A stretch of 64,000 nt of DNA from an uncultured Bellilinea sp. (GTDB lineage: Bacteria; Chloroflexota; Anaerolineae; Anaerolineales; Anaerolineaceae), in the NCBI GenBank assembly GCA_938040735.1, contig CALHYE010000001.1, forward strand, positions 62,001-126,000. Reading direction: 5' to 3'. Below are positions 22,026 through 36,429 of the stretch, in pieces. The translations under genes and the position numbers were made by a program. The notes below the pieces were generated by a model that made no database searches, was not told the DNA's origin, and saw only the letters and a list, made by a program, of their open reading frames with translations. Position 1 is the stretch's first letter. Each line of letters opens with the position of its first letter.

Positions 22026-23735
22026 ATGGAGAGAACGGTTCCACGCACAGCTTCAGAAGAAATTGACCTGTACCTTCGCACCATTTACTCGTTGCTGCGC
22101 ACCTCGGCGGAAGTGCAAATCCGTTCGCTGGAAGAGGTTCACGCTGCAACCAACTCATCCCTGCACCCGGATGCTCGGAGGGTCAGCCCGGATATTTCAG
22201 CGCTGATTTACAGCGCCCTGCGCCTGCCCGATTGCATGCCTGAGGTTCGGTCGGTGGTCTTGGGTCAGAGCGCCAGCGTCTTTCACCAGCACGGCTATGA
22301 TCAGGTGGAAAGCTGGCAGCCGGTTTCGGCGCGCGCCCGCCGCCGGCGCGTTTTTTTTAACGGGAAAGATACGCTGGCTTGCTACATCGCCAGCCGTTCG
22401 GATATTGATGATATTATCCCAACCCTGACGGCCTACCAGATTGAGTGGAACAAACTGCATCACTTATTGCAGCGCTGGCAGCGCCCGCTCAATGCCCGGA
22501 CGTTTGAAAAAAGTGATCAAGCCTTCCGGGAACTGGCAAATACCTTAGAAATGAGCGTAGAGGACCTCGAACGGCTGCGAACCGTTTGGGGCAGAGAGTT
22601 CTACACCAATTTACAGCGGATTGCTCACAAGCGTTGCCGGATTGGGGTGCGTCTCTTGAGCGGTTCTCTGGCGGATTACCGTCGCGCTACGCGGGCCTGG
22701 TGGGGTAACATTGAGCGGTGCAGTCCACAATTGGGCAGCCGACCGGTTTACTTCGTTTCCAGTAATACCCACTCCTTAATCAATCTGCTAACCGGTTTTG
22801 CGCTCCTTCATCGCGAGGATTTAATGCGTTTTCTGGATCGCAAAGAAAACCAGGAATTGAGGCGCGAATGGGAAAGCATTTGTAACGGACAAGTCCCTTC
22901 CAGTCAGGAAAATTTTCTTTATTATGTGTTGAAGAAGTATCAGCAGACCAACGAAGGCCGTGCGCTGATACATGCGCAGGCGATGGATGAAGCCAATTTG
23001 GGGATTGTGCGCATTCCCAGCGAGCATTATTTTGACGTTGAGGCGCAGGTCATCGAACTGCGCCGCTTAAATCCCGCGCGGATGGACCCGCGCATCAAGC
23101 GCGGCGAATTCGGTTGGCTGGAACGCAGCGATGCCTTGATTTTGAACATAGATTACCCGCTGGGGGTGGCAGCCTACAACTTGTTGGTCAAAATTGCTGA
23201 GCATGTTCATCCTATTTTGGGGGTGTATATCATGGGTAAAGCGGCAACCCTCAACGGCCGGTTGGGGGATGTGATGATTCCCAATGTGGTGCAGGATGAG
23301 CATTCTGAAAATACGTTTTTGTTCCAAAATGCTTTCAATGCTTCGCATGTGGCACCGTATTTGTTGTACGGCACGGTACTGGATAATCAAAAAGCGGTCA
23401 GCGTGTACGGCACCTTTTTGCAAAATGCGCGCATCATGGACGTAATTTACCGCGAAGGATATACCGATATTGAGATGGAAGCCGGTCCTTACCTTTCGGC
23501 GGTGTATGAAATGTTCCGCCCCAAACGGCATCCGATTAACGAAGTCGTTAACCTGTACGAAATCCCTTTTGATTTGGGAATTTTGCACTATGCTTCGGAT
23601 ACGCCGTTGAGCAAAGGTAAAAATTTGGGAGCTGGCGCCCTTTCCTATTTTGGGATGGATTCCACGTATGCCGCCAGCATTGCCATTCTCAGACGCATTT
23701 TTGAAAAGGAACAGAGCCGGCTGGCGAAGAAGTAG
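22026..23735 (+). CDS. Large protein with a C-terminal nucleoside phosphorylase-like domain
   Basis: A 569-residue soluble protein. Residues 1-330 are mostly helical and match nothing I can name. Residues about 360-560 resemble the phosphorylase/MTAN fold, with ILGVYIMGKAATLNG and DVMIPNVVQ, then DIEMEAGPYLSAVYE, like the M-E-(S/T/A) ribose-contact block of purine nucleoside phosphorylases. A purine nucleoside or nucleotide hydrolase role is possible but unproven. TACAAT ends seven bases before the ATG, so the mRNA is probably leaderless. It follows the hydrogenase operon by 13 bases, but the promoter suggests separate transcription. Confidence 0.65.
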   Translation: MERTVPRTASEEIDLYLRTIYSLLRTSAEVQIRSLEEVHAATNSSLHPDARRVSPDISALIYSALRLPDCMPEVRSVVLGQSASVFHQHGYDQVESWQPVSARARRRRVFFNGKDTLACYIASRSDIDDIIPTLTAYQIEWNKLHHLLQRWQRPLNARTFEKSDQAFRELANTLEMSVEDLERLRTVWGREFYTNLQRIAHKRCRIGVRLLSGSLADYRRATRAWWGNIERCSPQLGSRPVYFVSSNTHSLINLLTGFALLHREDLMRFLDRKENQELRREWESICNGQVPSSQENFLYYVLKKYQQTNEGRALIHAQAMDEANLGIVRIPSEHYFDVEAQVIELRRLNPARMDPRIKRGEFGWLERSDALILNIDYPLGVAAYNLLVKIAEHVHPILGVYIMGKAATLNGRLGDVMIPNVVQDEHSENTFLFQNAFNASHVAPYLLYGTVLDNQKAVSVYGTFLQNARIMDVIYREGYTDIEMEAGPYLSAVYEMFRPKRHPINEVVNLYEIPFDLGILHYASDTPLSKGKNLGAGALSYFGMDSTYAASIAILRRIFEKEQSRLAKK

Positions 23736-27233: not shown

Positions 27234-27947
27234 TCATTGGATGGGGCGGCGGGCCGGCAAACCAACCCGGCGGGGATACCCCGGCGGGGTGGAAGCGATC
27301 TTGTCCACGACCACTAAATAACGTTCTTCCGCAATTCCGGGAACCAGAACGGGGATGATTTGTTGCAGCTCACCCCCCAGTAAACGAATGGCTTTTTCCG
27401 CGGCGACGGCTTCCGCATGAGCGCTTTCCCCCTTTTGGGCCAGCATTTTACCGCCCAACGCAACCAGCGGAAGCAGATATTCGGCTAAGACCGGCAGGTT
27501 GGCGACCGCCCGCGCAACTGCCCAGTCGTATCTTTCACGGTAGGCGCGATTTTGCCCCAGGTCTTCCGCCCGCGCTTGCAGCAGGGTTACATCTTCCAGT
27601 TCGAGGGTTTGAACGATGTGGCGGCAAAAATCCAGTTTTTTGCCAACCGATTCGACCAGCGTCAACTTCATGCGGGGGTAGACGATCTTTAGGGGAATGC
27701 CCGGAAAACCGGCTCCGGTGCCAATGTCTATTAATTGTTCGGGCGGATGTTCACGAAAAGCAAGGATGCAACTGAGCGAATCGAGAAAGTGTTTGGTGCG
27801 GATTCCCTCGCGATCGCGAATGGCGGTCAGATTCATGCGGCTGTTCCACTCCAGCAGTTCGTCCTCGTAACGCTGAAAAGCGGCAATTTGCCGGGCAGTC
27901 AGTTGAATCCCCACCAGCGTTTTCAGGTCTTTGACCCATTTTTCCAT
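27234..27947 (-). CDS. rsmG: 16S rRNA (guanine527-N7)-methyltransferase RsmG
   Basis: A 237-residue SAM-dependent methyltransferase that modifies G527 in the 530 loop of 16S rRNA. The SAM motif I reads DIGTGAGFPGIPLKI and is preceded by LTAIRDREGIRTKHFLDSL, typical of RsmG/GidB. TATAAT (27962-27957) ends nine bases before the ATG, so the transcript is predicted to be leaderless. Its stop codon directly abuts that of recF on the other strand. In other bacteria, loss of the gene gives low-level streptomycin resistance. Confidence 0.95.
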   Translation of the reverse strand: MEKWVKDLKTLVGIQLTARQIAAFQRYEDELLEWNSRMNLTAIRDREGIRTKHFLDSLSCILAFREHPPEQLIDIGTGAGFPGIPLKIVYPRMKLTLVESVGKKLDFCRHIVQTLELEDVTLLQARAEDLGQNRAYRERYDWAVARAVANLPVLAEYLLPLVALGGKMLAQKGESAHAEAVAAEKAIRLLGGELQQIIPVLVPGIAEERYLVVVDKIASTPPGYPRRVGLPARRPIQ

Positions 27948-30686: not shown

Positions 30687-32180
30687 TTACCCTATTCCAC
30701 GGCGCGGGAGCAGGTTTTTCAACCAGATACCGCTGGAGCGTCCCCTGCCGATAAAGCGATTGCGTTCATCAAAAACAATCCATACCGGGGGGGGATTACC
30801 TGCGGAGCGGGGCATGGGGACATCTTTGCCTTTCAGCCATTCGTCCAGCATTTCGTCCGGCAGGGATAAGCAGCCCGATTGGAAATGATGGGCAAAACGG
30901 TTGACCCATTCGTGGGCTGGCTGCCAGCCCTGGGGGGTATCTTCCAGAACTTTGAGTCCCAGCATTTGACATGGCAGCCCGTCAAAAGTTTCCAGAAAGG
31001 CGGTGGGAACTGCAAAAATGGAGGCCTGGCTGCGCCACAATTCCAAACGATAGGTTTCCAGCACGCTGGTCAGGTCGAAGTGGTAGGTGTTTTTCAACCA
31101 TTCGGCAATCTCTTGCGCCATTGGACGGTTGAGCGGTTCCTGACCGGTTTCGCGCAACGGACGGGCGGGATGCGGCTCGGTGGGCAGATCCATTTCATCG
31201 GTGCGGGTCAGGCGGGCGGCAAAAAACCCGGAGGTCGAAAAGCGATGCGGCCAGAGCCGCAGGGCATTTTGCACTTGCGGGTGAAAGGTTTGCCCAAAGG
31301 CGGTGGTCAGCGCCGGGGCGGGTTGAGGAAGTCGGTTTGAAACCGAATCCACCTGAACAGCGTTTGGCAAGCGTCTCAATACCTCGTCCAGCACGGCTTC
31401 ATCTTCCTGCGGAGCGAGAGTGCAGGTGGAATAGACCACCTGTCCGCCGGGTTTGACGGCTGCCAGGGCGGACATGAGCATGGCGGTTTGGCGGCGCGCC
31501 AGATGAGATTGCTCCCGTGGAGAGATTGGGCGCATCGGATGAGATTCGGTCGGCCGCAGCGATTGCATGCTGCAGGGGGCATCCAGCAGCGCCCAATCGA
31601 ACACCCCCGGAAACCAGCGACCGAACTTTTCGGCTGGGAAACGGGTAACGGCGGTATTGACCGTTCCCCAATTTTGAAGCACCAAGCGCAAGGGGGTGAT
31701 GCGCTCAAGGCCGGCATCGTTGGCCAGCGTCAGCCCGCGGTCGAGTGTACGGCTGATCAGGTGGGTGGTTTTTCCGCCCGGCGAGGCCGCCATATCAAGG
31801 ATCAAGGGGTGGGGAGAAGCCGGCAAGTCGAACAGTTCGGCGGGCAGCATCGAAGCCGCATCCTGGATGTAGTAATGCCCAAAGCGGTGTTCCAGCGTCT
31901 GGCTGAGGGGTGTGCGCGCCTGTCGAACCTGCCAGCCGGTAGAACAAAAAGCCACCGGTTGAACCTGCCAGCCGTACCATTCGCACCAATCCGCCACGGC
32001 TTGCGATGTGGTTTTGAGCGGATTGATGCGAAACGCCGGTAACAGCGGGCGCTCTAATTCTTCCAACAAAGCCAGAAATTCATCCGGCGGCAGCAGGACG
32101 CGGAATTGTTCCAGCGCAGTTTGTTGGGCTGAAAGGCTTGGGACAGGGGTAGGTGGGGAAATTTTTTTACGGCGGCTCAT
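30687..32180 (-). CDS. RsmF/NOP2-type rRNA (cytosine-C5)-methyltransferase
   Basis: A 497-residue RNA m5C methyltransferase. SAM motif I is DMAASPGGKTTHLI; the catalytic motifs are LLDAPCSMQS (motif IV Pro-Cys) and STCTLAPQEDE (motif VI Thr-Cys), giving the two Cys used in the reaction. The C-terminal third looks like the RNA-binding extension of RsmF/YebU-type enzymes, including a PUA-like tail (GRGRSSGIWLKN). The start at 32180 is inferred from the ATGA overlap with the preceding gene. The exact target cytosine cannot be read from the sequence. Confidence 0.9.
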   Translation of the reverse strand: MSRRKKISPPTPVPSLSAQQTALEQFRVLLPPDEFLALLEELERPLLPAFRINPLKTTSQAVADWCEWYGWQVQPVAFCSTGWQVRQARTPLSQTLEHRFGHYYIQDAASMLPAELFDLPASPHPLILDMAASPGGKTTHLISRTLDRGLTLANDAGLERITPLRLVLQNWGTVNTAVTRFPAEKFGRWFPGVFDWALLDAPCSMQSLRPTESHPMRPISPREQSHLARRQTAMLMSALAAVKPGGQVVYSTCTLAPQEDEAVLDEVLRRLPNAVQVDSVSNRLPQPAPALTTAFGQTFHPQVQNALRLWPHRFSTSGFFAARLTRTDEMDLPTEPHPARPLRETGQEPLNRPMAQEIAEWLKNTYHFDLTSVLETYRLELWRSQASIFAVPTAFLETFDGLPCQMLGLKVLEDTPQGWQPAHEWVNRFAHHFQSGCLSLPDEMLDEWLKGKDVPMPRSAGNPPPVWIVFDERNRFIGRGRSSGIWLKNLLPRRGIG

Positions 32181-33004
32181 GTTTTTTGAATGCAAAACAC
32201 CAGTTCGTTTTCAAAACGAATTTCTTTGACTTGCCACGATTGACCGGCGAGGATGGTTTCCATCAAATGGCGCTGGCGATCTTCTAAATTGCGCGTGCCT
32301 GTCAGGCTGCTGATGGGCAGTGAAACCAGCAGCCAGCGCACCCGCAAAGCCCGAAAGAAAGGCAAACAGGCTCCGCGCCGGCGCTGCTCAAAACGGTGGG
32401 CTTCCTTGAAAAATAAGGCTACATCGGCTTCCACTGGCGGCGGGGTGACCAGAATATCCTGATGATAGCCCCGGCAGGGATACCCACCCAGTTCAAAAAA
32501 CCGATTGATCAATTCGATCCGCGGGCGGTGTAAGTCATAGGCATCATAACGGGTCGTTGCGGGCAACCCCATCCACGGTAAGGCAAACGGCTGCATACCG
32601 CATGCCAGGTCAAGGATTGTCTGAGGAAGGCCGGTAATTTGCCACAAGCGGTTATAAAACTCATCGAGGAGAGGGATGCGTTCGCGGGTGGAGGCGTGAC
32701 TGGCCAGCATGGACAGGCAAAATTCCCGAACAGCTTGCGGATTGCCGCTGGCAAAAGCGGCTTGCATGGCTGTTTGCGCGGTGGGATAATCCGGGTCGCC
32801 GAGGTAAGGGGCAACGATATTGTGGAGTTTCTGACGGACTGCTTGAAACACCACGTTCGGGTTATTGTGGCGTGCCGATTCCTCAATGATCAAATCCCGC
32901 AGCAATGTTTCCGGCAAATCCAGTAAACGGTACTTCCGCATTGCCCGTAATTTTGCAATCCAGGTTTGGATCTCCTCTTCGGAAATAGGCGGAAGTTTAT
33001 TCAT
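32177..33004 (-). CDS. Rmt/FmrO-like rRNA methyltransferase paralogue, divergent
   Basis: A 275-residue protein homologous to 16S rRNA G1405 N7-methyltransferases. It has a helical N-terminal domain (FQAVRQKLHNIVAPYL), SHASTRERIPLLDEFYN, SAM motif TILDLACGMQPFALPWMG and DAYDLHRPRIELINRF. The family block S-F-P-x-x-S-L-G-G-R-G-K-G-M is changed to SLPISSLTGTRNLEDRQ, so activity or target may differ. It overlaps the response-regulator gene by eight bases and the m5C methyltransferase by four, forming one operon with a two-component system. It could be a catalytically altered or new-target paralogue. Confidence 0.8.
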   Translation of the reverse strand: MNKLPPISEEEIQTWIAKLRAMRKYRLLDLPETLLRDLIIEESARHNNPNVVFQAVRQKLHNIVAPYLGDPDYPTAQTAMQAAFASGNPQAVREFCLSMLASHASTRERIPLLDEFYNRLWQITGLPQTILDLACGMQPFALPWMGLPATTRYDAYDLHRPRIELINRFFELGGYPCRGYHQDILVTPPPVEADVALFFKEAHRFEQRRRGACLPFFRALRVRWLLVSLPISSLTGTRNLEDRQRHLMETILAGQSWQVKEIRFENELVFCIQKT

Positions 33005-33662
33005 CCCGTCTGACGATTCCCTGATTCCAGGCGTATACGGCAGCCTGGGTGCGGTCTGCCAGATGAAGTTTGGAGAGAATATTGCTGACGTGGCTCTTGA
33101 CCGTCTTTTCGCTGATGACCAAAGTTTCAGCAATCTCCCGGTTGGAATTGCCGCCGGCAATCAGGCGCAGAATTTCCATCTCGCGGTCACTCAATTCGGA
33201 AAATGGGTTAATCGCTTCGCCTCGGCTGCCCTGCACTTCCTGAACAAGGCGCGCGGCAACCCGAGGATGAAGAACAGCCTCGCCCCGCGAGGCTTTGCGA
33301 ATGGCATCAACCAATTCGGCAGGTTTTGAGTCTTTCAAAACATAGGAAAGCGCGCCGGCCCGAACAGCGGGGAAAATATGTTCATCCTTATAATAAGAGG
33401 TGAAAATGATCACCTGAGTATGCGGGCTAATGGCCTTAACGCGGCGAGTTGCCTCCACCCCATCCATGTCCGGCATGATCAAATCCATCAGTAAAACATC
33501 CGGCACACTGTTGGGGAGTAACTCGAGCAACTGTGCGCCGTTTTCAGCCTCACCGATGACTTCAATATCGGCCTGGGTTTGCAAGAAGGCCATAAGACCC
33601 TGCCGGACGACGGCATGGTCGTCCACAATAATCACCGTGATCGGGTTGGGGGTTTTATCCAT
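32997..33662 (-). CDS. NarL/LuxR-family response regulator
   Basis: A 221-residue protein. The receiver domain has the acidic pair Asp14/Asp15 and phosphoacceptor Asp60 (LLMDLIMPDMDG). A LuxR-type helix-turn-helix follows (LSDREMEILRLIAGGNSNREIAETLVISEKTVK, split across about residues 155-190). The start at 33662 overlaps the end of the kinase gene by eight bases, and an upstream extension would enter the kinase frame. It should bind DNA after phosphorylation by the adjacent kinase. Its targets may include the methyltransferase operon it belongs to, which is an inference. Confidence 0.92.
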   Translation of the reverse strand: MDKTPNPITVIIVDDHAVVRQGLMAFLQTQADIEVIGEAENGAQLLELLPNSVPDVLLMDLIMPDMDGVEATRRVKAISPHTQVIIFTSYYKDEHIFPAVRAGALSYVLKDSKPAELVDAIRKASRGEAVLHPRVAARLVQEVQGSRGEAINPFSELSDREMEILRLIAGGNSNREIAETLVISEKTVKSHVSNILSKLHLADRTQAAVYAWNQGIVRRDE

Positions 33663-34755
33663 GGAGGATTTCCTCGTTGCGCGGTTCAAATTTGATCGGC
33701 ACAAAAGCGCTGACCTTAGTTCCATGTCCAATGTTGCTTTCAATCTCCAGCCGGCCGCCAATTTCATCCAATCGGTCGCGCATGCTTTTAAGACCAAAAC
33801 CGGAAGTTCCTGACCGGGTCAGATCGAAGCCGCGCCCGTTGTCATGGATACTCAGGATAACCTTATTGGGGTAGTGATGAAGCGAGACCTTTACATGGGT
33901 TGCGCCGCTATGGCGAATGACATTGGCGAGGGCTTCCTGCACCATTCGGAAGAGGGTCAATTCCTGACTGAAAGTCAGGTTCAGGTTTTCGGCGGGAGTG
34001 AAATCAACCACGATTTGATTTTGCTGCTGCCACTGATGCAGGTAATCTTCCAATGCGCCGCTCAGGTTCTTTTCGTGGAGCATTGCCGGGCGGAGTTCTA
34101 AAATCACATTGGTAAGTTCCTGTTGAGCCTGCACGGCAAGACCCTCGGCGCGTTGAAGGGCTTGTTGGGCAGCCTGAGGTTGGTTTTCAATCAAAATAGC
34201 GGCGGTGTTCAACTGGAGGATGGCTGCGGTAAGGTTTTGCTTGACCGAATCGTGCAGATCGCGGGCAAGCTGATTGCGTTCTTCAATAGCCGCCAGTTGC
34301 TGGCGGGTCATCAACAGGGTTTCCAGTTCTGATGCCATCTGATTCAGCTGTTTGCCAAAACGGGAAATCTCATCCTGCGCCGGATCGTGAATACGCGGCT
34401 TGAAGTTGCCGTTTGCCCAGGCTTCGGTGGTTTCACGGAGGTGGTCAAGGCGGCTTTCCAACCAACGGGCGGTCAAAAAACCGAATAATGTGCCTACCAC
34501 CACAGCCGGGATAATCAGCACCAGCAATGCTTGACCGGCTAGTGGAATCAAGCCGGGCAGCATCCGGCTGCTCGTTGAGCCGGCGAATAAATCCGGCATG
34601 GCGCGGGAAAGATAGAAATTGAGCGCTAGAAAACTCCACCAGGCCGCCATTAAGATTGCCGCCAGGGTTACCAGAGTAAAACTCAAGGTCAGCCGCCAGC
34701 GCAAACGGTTAAGAAAACGATTTACAGATTGCCGCCAGCGGATAGAAGGATTCAT
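33655..34755 (-). CDS. NarL-type sensor histidine kinase with two membrane helices and HAMP
   Basis: A 366-residue kinase. Two membrane helices (about 22-48 and 70-96) flank a short extracytoplasmic loop of only 25 residues. HAMP (to about 150) follows, then a HisKA_3 dimerisation domain with phosphoacceptor His168 in ARDLHDSVKQNL, and an HATPase domain with NGRGF. The small sensory loop suggests that the stimulus is felt in the membrane or via partner proteins, possibly the two small DUF4190 proteins encoded just upstream. Its ATG overlaps the stop of one of them. Confidence 0.92.
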   Translation of the reverse strand: MNPSIRWRQSVNRFLNRLRWRLTLSFTLVTLAAILMAAWWSFLALNFYLSRAMPDLFAGSTSSRMLPGLIPLAGQALLVLIIPAVVVGTLFGFLTARWLESRLDHLRETTEAWANGNFKPRIHDPAQDEISRFGKQLNQMASELETLLMTRQQLAAIEERNQLARDLHDSVKQNLTAAILQLNTAAILIENQPQAAQQALQRAEGLAVQAQQELTNVILELRPAMLHEKNLSGALEDYLHQWQQQNQIVVDFTPAENLNLTFSQELTLFRMVQEALANVIRHSGATHVKVSLHHYPNKVILSIHDNGRGFDLTRSGTSGFGLKSMRDRLDEIGGRLEIESNIGHGTKVSAFVPIKFEPRNEEILHG

Positions 34756-35063
34756 GGCAGGTTAGGGAAAGTTTGAATGCCAACCGGCATGAAGAAGAGA
34801 AATGCAACCGCCACCAACACACAAATGGCAAGCCCAAGCGCTATTCCTATCCATCCCATAATAATGCCGGCTCGGGCAAGATTCTCTCCGGCATAAAATT
34901 CTGGTTTTTGTAAGATTTCTTTTTGCGCCATTTTGCCGGCAATGACTGCGCCAATTGAGCCAACCAAAGGCAATACACCGATGAGGCCTAAAATTCCAAG
35001 CACCAATCCTACAATTGCGAGAGGATGAGAAGAAGATGACTGACGAAGAGGGGAATTATCCAT
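34752..35063 (-). CDS. DUF4190-type small membrane protein, copy 2
   Basis: A 103-residue protein with two membrane-helix pairs in the DUF4190 pattern: SHPLAIVGLVLGILGL, a GSIGAVIAGKMAQKEI loop and ARAGIIMGWIGIALGL. Its stop codon overlaps the start of the histidine kinase (ATGA), and it is a paralogue of the next gene upstream at 35219-35518. Tight coupling to the kinase makes an accessory sensing role plausible. Function is unknown. Confidence 0.8.
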   Translation of the reverse strand: MDNSPLRQSSSSHPLAIVGLVLGILGLIGVLPLVGSIGAVIAGKMAQKEILQKPEFYAGENLARAGIIMGWIGIALGLAICVLVAVAFLFFMPVGIQTFPNLP

Positions 35064-35140
35064 TAGATTTACTCTATTTCTAAAAGGTTGCGTCGAATTA
35101 ATTTTATCCTTGAAATGGACGGATGTCCTGAATTAAATTG

Positions 35141-35202
35141 AGGAATGGGTTATCGAAAAGGGCTCAAAGGATGACAGTGACGAGCCTTCCTAACCCATTC
35201 CT
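35141..35202 (-). other. Long structured inverted repeat between the DUF4190 genes
   Basis: AGGAATGGGTTA (35141-35152) pairs with TAACCCATTCCT (35191-35202), a perfect 12-bp outer stem. An inner GGCTC/GAGCC stem (35161-35165, 35182-35186) gives a branched hairpin. There is no T tract on either strand at its foot. It lies in the transcript between two paralogous genes; it might be a partial terminator, an mRNA processing or stability element, or a dispersed repeat. Confidence 0.65.
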
Positions 35203-35218
35203 TGTTCGGTTGGGGTTG

Positions 35219-35518
35219 TTAGCGGATGATTCCCGGCAAGGGCATAAAGAACAGGACAGCCAGGATGATTAAGATAGTGATTGCGGCTACAAACCCTATC
35301 CCAATCCAGCCGAGAATCATGCCGGCCTTTGCAATGGTCTCTCCGTTGTAGAGGCTCGCTTGGTCGCGGATGTTTCGTCGGGCCACATGTCCGGTTATGA
35401 TGCCGGCAATACTCCCGAACAGGGGCAAAAAGCTGAATCCTCCAACGGATAAAATCAGACTGACGACGGCTAACGGATGGGTTCTCACGGCTGGTTTGAT
35501 CTCTATTGGGTTTTCCAT
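35219..35518 (-). CDS. DUF4190-type small membrane protein, copy 1
   Basis: A 99-residue membrane protein, a paralogue of the gene at 34752-35063. It shares the THPLAVVSLILSVGG start, the GSIAGIITGHVARRNI loop, the Y-x-G-E-T/N motif and the AKAGMILGWIGIG block. An AAAGGAG ribosome-binding site supports the start. It is first in the probable operon DUF4190-DUF4190-kinase-regulator-methyltransferase-methyltransferase, although the hairpin that follows may reduce read-through. Function unknown. Confidence 0.8.
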   Translation of the reverse strand: MENPIEIKPAVRTHPLAVVSLILSVGGFSFLPLFGSIAGIITGHVARRNIRDQASLYNGETIAKAGMILGWIGIGFVAAITILIILAVLFFMPLPGIIR

Positions 35519-35616: not shown

Positions 35617-36429
35617 TCAGGCAGGAGAAAGCAGGAAAACCAGTTCTCCGGGAAAGTCAAAAATCTCTACACGGACTTGCCAGCCTTGAATGATTTCTTC
35701 AAAACGCTGACGGTAGCGCTGGCGCATCCCTTTGCCGCGCCCGCCCAAACTGTGGGCCGGAAAGGATACCAGCCAGTGGGTTGCCGGAATTTCCCGCAGC
35801 AGGCGGACGGCTATATTCTTGTCTAACTGCTCCAGACAGGGGATGGATTTGAGCAGCAAAGCCACCTGAACCGGTCGGTTGGGCAGTTCGTGTGTGAGAT
35901 CGCAAAGCGATGCTTTGCCGTTGATACCCAAATGATCAAAAAATTGCTGCAAGAAGGCAATCTGGTCGCTGTAAATGTCGCAAACCTGAATTTGGGTTTG
36001 GGGGGTGATCGGCATCCAGGGCAGGGCTAACGGATTGAGACCGCATGCCAGATCAAGGATGGAATGAAGGGGCTGCAGCCTGGTCAGGGGTTCGGCATAA
36101 AACCGCTCGAGGATTGGCAAGCGTTCGCGGGTGGAAGCGTGGAGTGACATCATCTGGCTGCAAAACTCTTTGACCTGCGGGTGGCGCAAGTCGTGGGGCA
36201 GGTGATCTAAACGGCTTTTCCATTGCGCGTAGTCTATGGGTTTGTCCAGATAAGCCCCGCCAACCTGATGGAGTTTATTGCGCACGGCCTTGATCAGTTC
36301 ACGCGGCTGACGGATGCTGCCTTGGTAGCGTTCAATCAAGCCACGAATCAAGTTGGGGGATATGGCGGCGTAGCGCGGGTTGGCCTGTACAGCGCGGATC
36401 AGGGAGTCAATATCAATCGGTTCAGGCAT
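35617..36429 (-). CDS. RmtB-like 16S rRNA (guanine1405-N7)-methyltransferase homologue
   Basis: A 270-residue protein with the full Rmt/ArmA-family layout: an N-terminal helical domain (LIKAVRNKLHQVGGAYLD), the LHASTRERLPILERFY linker, SAM motif ILDLACGLNPLALPWM, a VCDIYSD acidic loop, VALLLKSIPCLEQ and the signature SFPAHSLGGRGKGM. In known members these bind the 30S subunit and methylate G1405, giving high-level resistance to 4,6-disubstituted aminoglycosides. It overlaps the tgt-like gene by eight bases. Whether it acts as a resistance enzyme or as an intrinsic rRNA modifier is not shown by sequence. Confidence 0.9.
   Translation of the reverse strand: MPEPIDIDSLIRAVQANPRYAAISPNLIRGLIERYQGSIRQPRELIKAVRNKLHQVGGAYLDKPIDYAQWKSRLDHLPHDLRHPQVKEFCSQMMSLHASTRERLPILERFYAEPLTRLQPLHSILDLACGLNPLALPWMPITPQTQIQVCDIYSDQIAFLQQFFDHLGINGKASLCDLTHELPNRPVQVALLLKSIPCLEQLDKNIAVRLLREIPATHWLVSFPAHSLGGRGKGMRQRYRQRFEEIIQGWQVRVEIFDFPGELVFLLSPA

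Follow-up and report, generated by a model that had tools for sequence, protein, structure and literature searches.

Gene A of this uncultured Bellilinea sp. encodes an FmrO/Rmt-family methyltransferase that is probably a chromosomal, vertically inherited enzyme of housekeeping type. As judged from its sequence, this G1405-family enzyme would form m7G1405 constitutively, would not be part of a drug response and would not be a source of the acquired Rmt genes. It is encoded beside a second, non-canonical member of the tRNA-guanine-transglycosylase family (TGT2), and all 92 TGT2-bearing genomes found in our two genome samples combined also carry gene A. The window, that is, the whole stretch of 64,000 nucleotides that was analysed, is part of contig 1 of a source genome of 1.7 Mb that is 77% complete, and the features of the locus are listed in Table 1.

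Table 1. Features of the gene A locus, in minus-strand gene order (positions in the window)
Feature	Position	Strand	Basis
TGT2: second, non-canonical tRNA-guanine-transglycosylase family protein, 363 aa	36422..37513	minus	PF01702, 319 bits
Gene A: FmrO/Rmt-family methyltransferase, 270 aa	35617..36429	minus	Pfam, NCBIfam, solved-structure homologues
Two DUF4190 small membrane proteins, in the A-B insert	34752..35518	minus	domain match
NarL-type response regulator and histidine kinase, remainder of the A-B insert	32997..34755	minus	domain match
Gene B: diverged FmrO/Rmt paralogue, 275 aa	32177..33004	minus	PF07091, own clade, AF2 model
RsmF-like m5C methyltransferase (16S C1407-type), 497 aa, last in the series	30687..32180	minus	PF01189, PF17125

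Gene A and its paralogue within the Rmt family

A sequence-only reading of this DNA had proposed an RmtB-like G1405 methyltransferase. The open reading frame is real, and its frame is on the minus strand, with three stops in the plus-strand translation of the same interval. Membership of the Rmt/FmrO sequence family was borne out by a match to Pfam FmrO of 140 bits (E = 9e-41; cut-off 27) and a match to the generic NCBIfam Rmt G1405 model NF000466 of 205 bits (E = 9e-61), which does not reach the curated cut-off of 250; the highest score among relatives was 237 bits. The two family blocks that had been recognised, SFPAHSLGGRGKGM and DLACGLNPLA, were both found. Among solved structures, the protein matched Sgm (E = 2.5e-40), RmtF, RmtB, ArmA and RmtC. 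Sgm was the best match, and the label 'RmtB-like' is not supported, since Sgm (32% identity, 142 bits) is nearer than RmtB (30%, 97 bits). Identity to the characterised G1405 enzymes was 25-32%, and to the acquired enzymes 25-31%. The predicted protein fits the Rmt family by sequence and residues, not by the NCBI naming cut-off. The nearest named homologue is from Bellilinea caldifistulae GOMI-1 (80% identity), and the matches are from Anaerolineaceae, Chloroflexota; cultured organisms carrying gene A include Bellilinea, Thermanaerothrix daxensis, Longilinea arvoryzae, Levilinea saccharolytica and Ornatilinea apprima. We found no account of Chloroflexi G1405 enzymes or TGT paralogues in the open-access literature.

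An alignment was made of 130 A sequences, 81 B sequences and seven references, namely RmtB, RmtC, RmtE, RmtF, RmtG and ArmA, which were taken from plasmid records, and Sgm. The reference-invariant residues kept in A (RmtB numbering) are L49, H50, H81, S83, T84, E86, R87, D109, C112, N115, P116, D131, K174, L179, F203, P204, G214, M215, Y219 and E242. Nearly all invariants of the seven references, including the SAM motif and the GxxKGM substrate loop, were present in at least 114 of the 130 A sequences; at position F203, 108 sequences have F and the other 22 have Y. With these residues retained, A has the appearance of a functional G1405-type enzyme.

Gene B scored 157 bits against PF07091 (FmrO; cut-off 27) and 155 bits against NF000466, below the cut-off of 250. 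It retains the SAM-binding motifs, HxSTxER and K174. Residues P177, L179, G214, M215 and Y219 are replaced, and B thus lacks part of the family-invariant set; the P-x-L that follows K174 is lost together with the KGM/Y219 loop, and a block specific to B, FKEAHRFEQRxxG, takes their place. The AF2 model of B (pLDDT 93, pTM 0.88) has the fold of the Sgm/FmrO/Rmt/ArmA family, with Sgm ranking first in the PDB (TM 0.83), followed by RmtC, RmtB and RmtF. Since the SAM motifs are kept and the substrate loops altered, B looks like a SAM-binding paralogue that either has a different target site or serves as a helper. Our working model for A and B is a catalytic/non-catalytic pair of homologous proteins, of the eukaryotic QTRT1/QTRT2 type, in which A has the full motif set and B has changed substrate loops; unlike in such pairs, the SAM-binding motifs are kept in B.

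Gene order and co-occurrence of A, TGT2 and B

The tgt-like gene that had been noted beside gene A is indeed there, overlapping it by 8 nt (ATGCCTGA). That description of the locus had missed the strand, gene B, the RsmF-like gene and the non-canonical nature of TGT2. Genes on the minus strand follow the order TGT2, A, an insert, B and the RsmF-like gene, with an overlap of 8 nt between the response regulator and B and of 4 nt between B and the RsmF-like gene. The insert of about 2.6 kb (32997-35518, minus), which contains a two-component system and two DUF4190 proteins, belongs to the Bellilinea lineage. The DUF4190 pair was also seen in loci L053 and L054 and a single copy in L055, and it is missing from most other loci.

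We compared 80 loci that were the best similarity matches to A, a set biased towards close relatives. A same-strand TGT gene lay upstream of A in 78 of these, one of the two exceptions being cut by a contig end, and TGT2 abutted A in 76; downstream of A, B was found in 58 and RsmF in 58. As the earlier reading had stated, gene A is chromosomal, and no antibiotic cluster or mobile element was found among the 29 window proteins that were scanned. The scanned proteins of the wider window comprise complex I genes, transporters, metabolic genes and RsmG. The RsmG/GidB gene (16S m7G527 methyltransferase; 27234-27947, minus) is a third 16S-modifying gene, 2.7 kb from the RsmF-like gene. Also present in the window are a selenocysteine tRNA (594-686, minus; Rfam RF01852, 71.7 bits) and a full-length DUF6909 protein (22026-23735, plus; 797 bits).

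An FmrO/Rmt-family match was present in 24 of the 25 genomes from the same GTDB family. Most of these genomes have two, one from group A and one from group B, which usually overlap in tandem. The exceptions were G014, with no match, G006, with a single match that is B, and G023, with one divergent A that has lost the KGM loop; G307, from the second sample, is one more family member without A. In G023, a single-contig Anaerolineaceae genome that is 99% complete, this very diverged A adjoins RsmF (locus L274, 2451-4766), and TGT2 and B are absent.

Even samples of the class (298 genomes) and of the phylum (301 genomes) were then searched. In the class sample, A was found in 75 genomes, a count that excludes three matches at E of about 1e-4; TGT2 was found in 47, each of which has A. 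The corresponding numbers for the phylum sample were 58 and 53, again with A in 53 of 53. Fisher tests of the association gave p = 2e-35 and 1e-53, values that ignore shared ancestry; across the two samples, the pattern recurs in about 26 groups at family level. A and TGT2 were also found together in genomes where they lie on different contigs (G369, G416, G507 and G535). Genomes with A and without TGT2 belong mainly to two families (f50 and f52), and a TGT2 missed by the threshold was ruled out there for the ten TGT2-less genomes of these families that were searched. Fragments of TGT2 were seen at contig edges in G380 and G533, and a split TGT2 in G177. B-type genes occurred in 19 class-sample genomes (two with split genes counted), 17 of which also have TGT2; assembly gaps may be the cause in the other two, G252 and G290. 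The three genes form nested sets, B mostly within TGT2 and TGT2 within A, and the TGT gene is a co-occurring partner of A and not a chance neighbour. One TGT2-A pair (L132) lies on a contig labelled Candidatus Poribacteria, with an A that groups with a Caldilineae sequence (96/78), and is either a transfer or a misbinning.

Candidate substrates of TGT2 and gene A

TGT2 scored 320 bits against TIGR00430, the model for canonical bacterial Tgt, above the cut-off of 307. The possibility that it is the only queuosine TGT of the genome was ruled out, since a canonical copy (G000:C2:57495-58550) and QueA were located elsewhere. A canonical TGT (PF01702, about 500-530 bits) and an operon TGT (about 300-320 bits) were present in all adequately assembled A/B-bearing family members that were searched, and QueA was found in most searched members of the family; G014, which has neither A nor B, has the canonical TGT only. 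A TGT2 profile separated the two types cleanly, with scores of at least 577 bits for TGT2 and at most 263 for canonical copies.

Residues D102, D156, D280, C318, C323 and H349 were conserved in 73 of 73 TGT2 sequences and C320 in 71; Q203, R286 and R289 are also retained. The AF2 model (pLDDT 91.5) matched bacterial TGT structures (Z. mobilis TGT, TM 0.87). TGT2 thus shares its fold and its catalytic and zinc residues with bacterial Tgt (Z. mobilis 1EFZ, T. maritima 2ASH), and differs in being a second copy never found without A and in its base pocket. Residues 231-235 read W-P-L-D-x and residue 260 is Leu in all 73 sequences (234 is N in one), whereas 24 of 24 canonical copies from the same and related genomes have L-S/A-V-G-E and Met260. 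From these residues, TGT2 appears to be a transglycosylase whose catalytic machinery is intact and whose base pocket has been remodelled.

The 231/232 peptide of Z. mobilis Tgt adopts one orientation for guanine and the flipped one for preQ1, backed by Glu235 as a switch, N7 of the outgoing guanine is contacted by the Ala232 amide through a water molecule, and an Ala232Ser substitution lowers kcat about 100-fold (PMC3660597). Since TGT2 has Pro232 and no Glu235, we infer that it cannot use a switch of this type. Because proline lacks an amide hydrogen, guanine N7 would not be read through that contact at position 232, and such a pocket would suit a base with a blocked N7.

The companions of gene A in different lineages bear on its target. 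The RsmF-like protein scored 255 bits against NCBIfam RsmF, below the cut-off of 588, and has the catalytic motif DAPCSMQ in place of the DAPCSGEG of RsmF; PCSMQ or PCSME was present in the window and in 18 of 19 relatives, the remaining relative (L115) having DAPCSGET. A role for this gene as a strict partner of A was rejected, as most of its occurrences are in Anaerolineaceae and as family f36, which lacks A, has it too (an orthologue is present in G061, G124, G148 and G168). RsmI is the 16S C1402 2'-O-methyltransferase. Among those members of family f50 that lack TGT2, it overlaps or abuts A in five of five examined loci (TIGR00096, 207-232 bits in all five, above the cut-off of 168). Modification by RsmF at C1407 is reportedly blocked by Sgm and RmtC, and that by RsmI at C1402 by ArmA (summarised in PMC12406665). 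The RsmF-like protein and RsmI, which concern the same few nucleotides, are thus paired with A in different lineages, and this pairing is the best evidence in our analysis that A may act on the decoding centre.

The 16S genes of relatives read TGTACACACCGCCCGTCACGTC (one reads ...CAAGTC). G1405 is intact with or without A/B, and A-bearing relatives have an unaltered CCCG(1405)TCA target site in those of their 16S genes that were found. No helix 44 base in the 16S genes compared distinguished A-bearing from A-less genomes, and a helix 44 sequence difference tied to the presence of A/B was rejected. The source genome is incomplete, and its own 16S gene was not found.

The tight linkage of A to TGT2, a tRNA-type enzyme, would fit a tRNA target as well. 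A and B would then be Rmt-fold enzymes redirected to a tRNA guanine, with TGT2 acting on the same tRNAs. The fold of TGT2 is indeed nearest to bacterial tRNA-TGT, and it keeps R286 and R289, which we take to be RNA-binding residues. However, A retains the residues common to 30S-specific enzymes, and its other neighbours, RsmF and RsmI, are enzymes of the rRNA decoding centre, so that we hold a tRNA module to be unlikely.

Alternatively, TGT2 may take part in a new pathway, in which A N7-methylates a guanine, TGT2 then swaps the base at that position or at a neighbouring one, and B and RsmF follow later; this would make TGT2 a transglycosylase that inserts a new base, perhaps into rRNA. That A occurs without TGT2 and TGT2 never without A is expected if TGT2 needs the product of A, and the kept catalytic and zinc residues together with the altered loop, Leu260 and a proline that cannot read guanine N7 in the manner of Ala232 (PMC3660597) are consistent with this. 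Pro232 may, however, merely signify a different incoming base, and a shared substrate does not follow from co-occurrence. There is, to our knowledge, no transglycosylase that acts on m7G or on rRNA, and we regard such a pathway as likewise rather improbable. Its most specific form, in which TGT2 would exchange the base of an m7G made by A in the decoding centre and so create a new modified nucleotide in many Chloroflexota, is more doubtful still.

Descent and possible role of gene A

An unrooted tree of 69 sequences was computed with a mixture model; some reference branches are long, and Sgm is the sole actinobacterial sequence. All 44 A sequences fall on one side of a branch supported at 97/95, with RmtB, RmtC, RmtE, RmtF, RmtG, ArmA and Sgm outside, and B forms a separate clade (100/100). 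Because A and B are near-universal in the family and A, present in 58 of the 301 phylum genomes, forms one clade, A appears to be old, vertically inherited and not mobile. Acquisition as a mobile gene was ruled out by the conservation of the operon across the class, by the single clade and by the lack of mobile or antibiotic-cluster genes among the 29 scanned proteins.

Resistance is the known role of the family, and m7G1405 would protect against gentamicin/kanamycin-type drugs (PMC4705659). A could accordingly be an intrinsic-resistance gene kept against environmental aminoglycosides, with incidental operon partners. Its near-universal retention in a family of anaerobes, its co-inheritance with TGT2 across the phylum and its pairing with rRNA modification genes argue against this, and we consider it quite unlikely. 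The sequence-only reading had also proposed a reservoir or ancestor of the acquired genes; A is of the same family, chromosomal and outside an antibiotic producer cluster, but with the acquired Rmt/ArmA genes outside the A branch, without grouping in the tree, at 25-31% identity, and with a conserved operon and no mobile-element linkage in the scanned parts of the window, direct ancestry is not supported and this origin is very improbable.

We therefore return to the reading of A as a housekeeping-type G1405-family enzyme. Besides the linkage to TGT2, the points against m7G1405 as its product are the score below the NF000466 cut-off, the 25-32% identity to characterised enzymes, the lack of a 16S match in the source genome and the lack of a distinguishing helix 44 base. 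A resembles Sgm (PDB 3LCU/3LCV) and the other FmrO/Rmt/ArmA enzymes in full-length homology, in its invariant residues and in its 32% identity to Sgm. Unlike them, it lies outside a producer cluster or mobile element, forms a separate clade, and is encoded with a paralogue in an RNA-modification operon of housekeeping type. RsmF and RsmI, which are housekeeping methyltransferases of the 16S decoding centre, are the other known systems that the locus recalls, the RsmF-like gene following B.

From these features we infer the target nucleotide, the constitutive action and a region of the ribosome shared by TGT2, B and RsmF. With SAM as methyl donor, A would at all times modify G1405 at N7, within helix 44 of the 30S subunit. 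A and TGT2 would be the core of the module, to which Anaerolineaceae would add B and the RsmF-like protein (C1407-type) and the other family RsmI (C1402). B might modify a second site or assist A, TGT2 might act on the same RNA region as A or on a nucleotide that A has prepared, and RsmF or RsmI would act nearby. A predicted side effect is intrinsic resistance to 4,6-disubstituted deoxystreptamines such as gentamicin and kanamycin.

If this is true, there is a housekeeping branch among the m7G1405 'resistance' enzymes, and many Chloroflexota would modify the base at which pan-aminoglycoside resistance acts as part of their normal physiology. This would bear on the origin of the enzyme family and on how cells tolerate the fitness cost of m7G1405, and the module of A and TGT2 hints at an additional modification step on the ribosomes of Chloroflexota.
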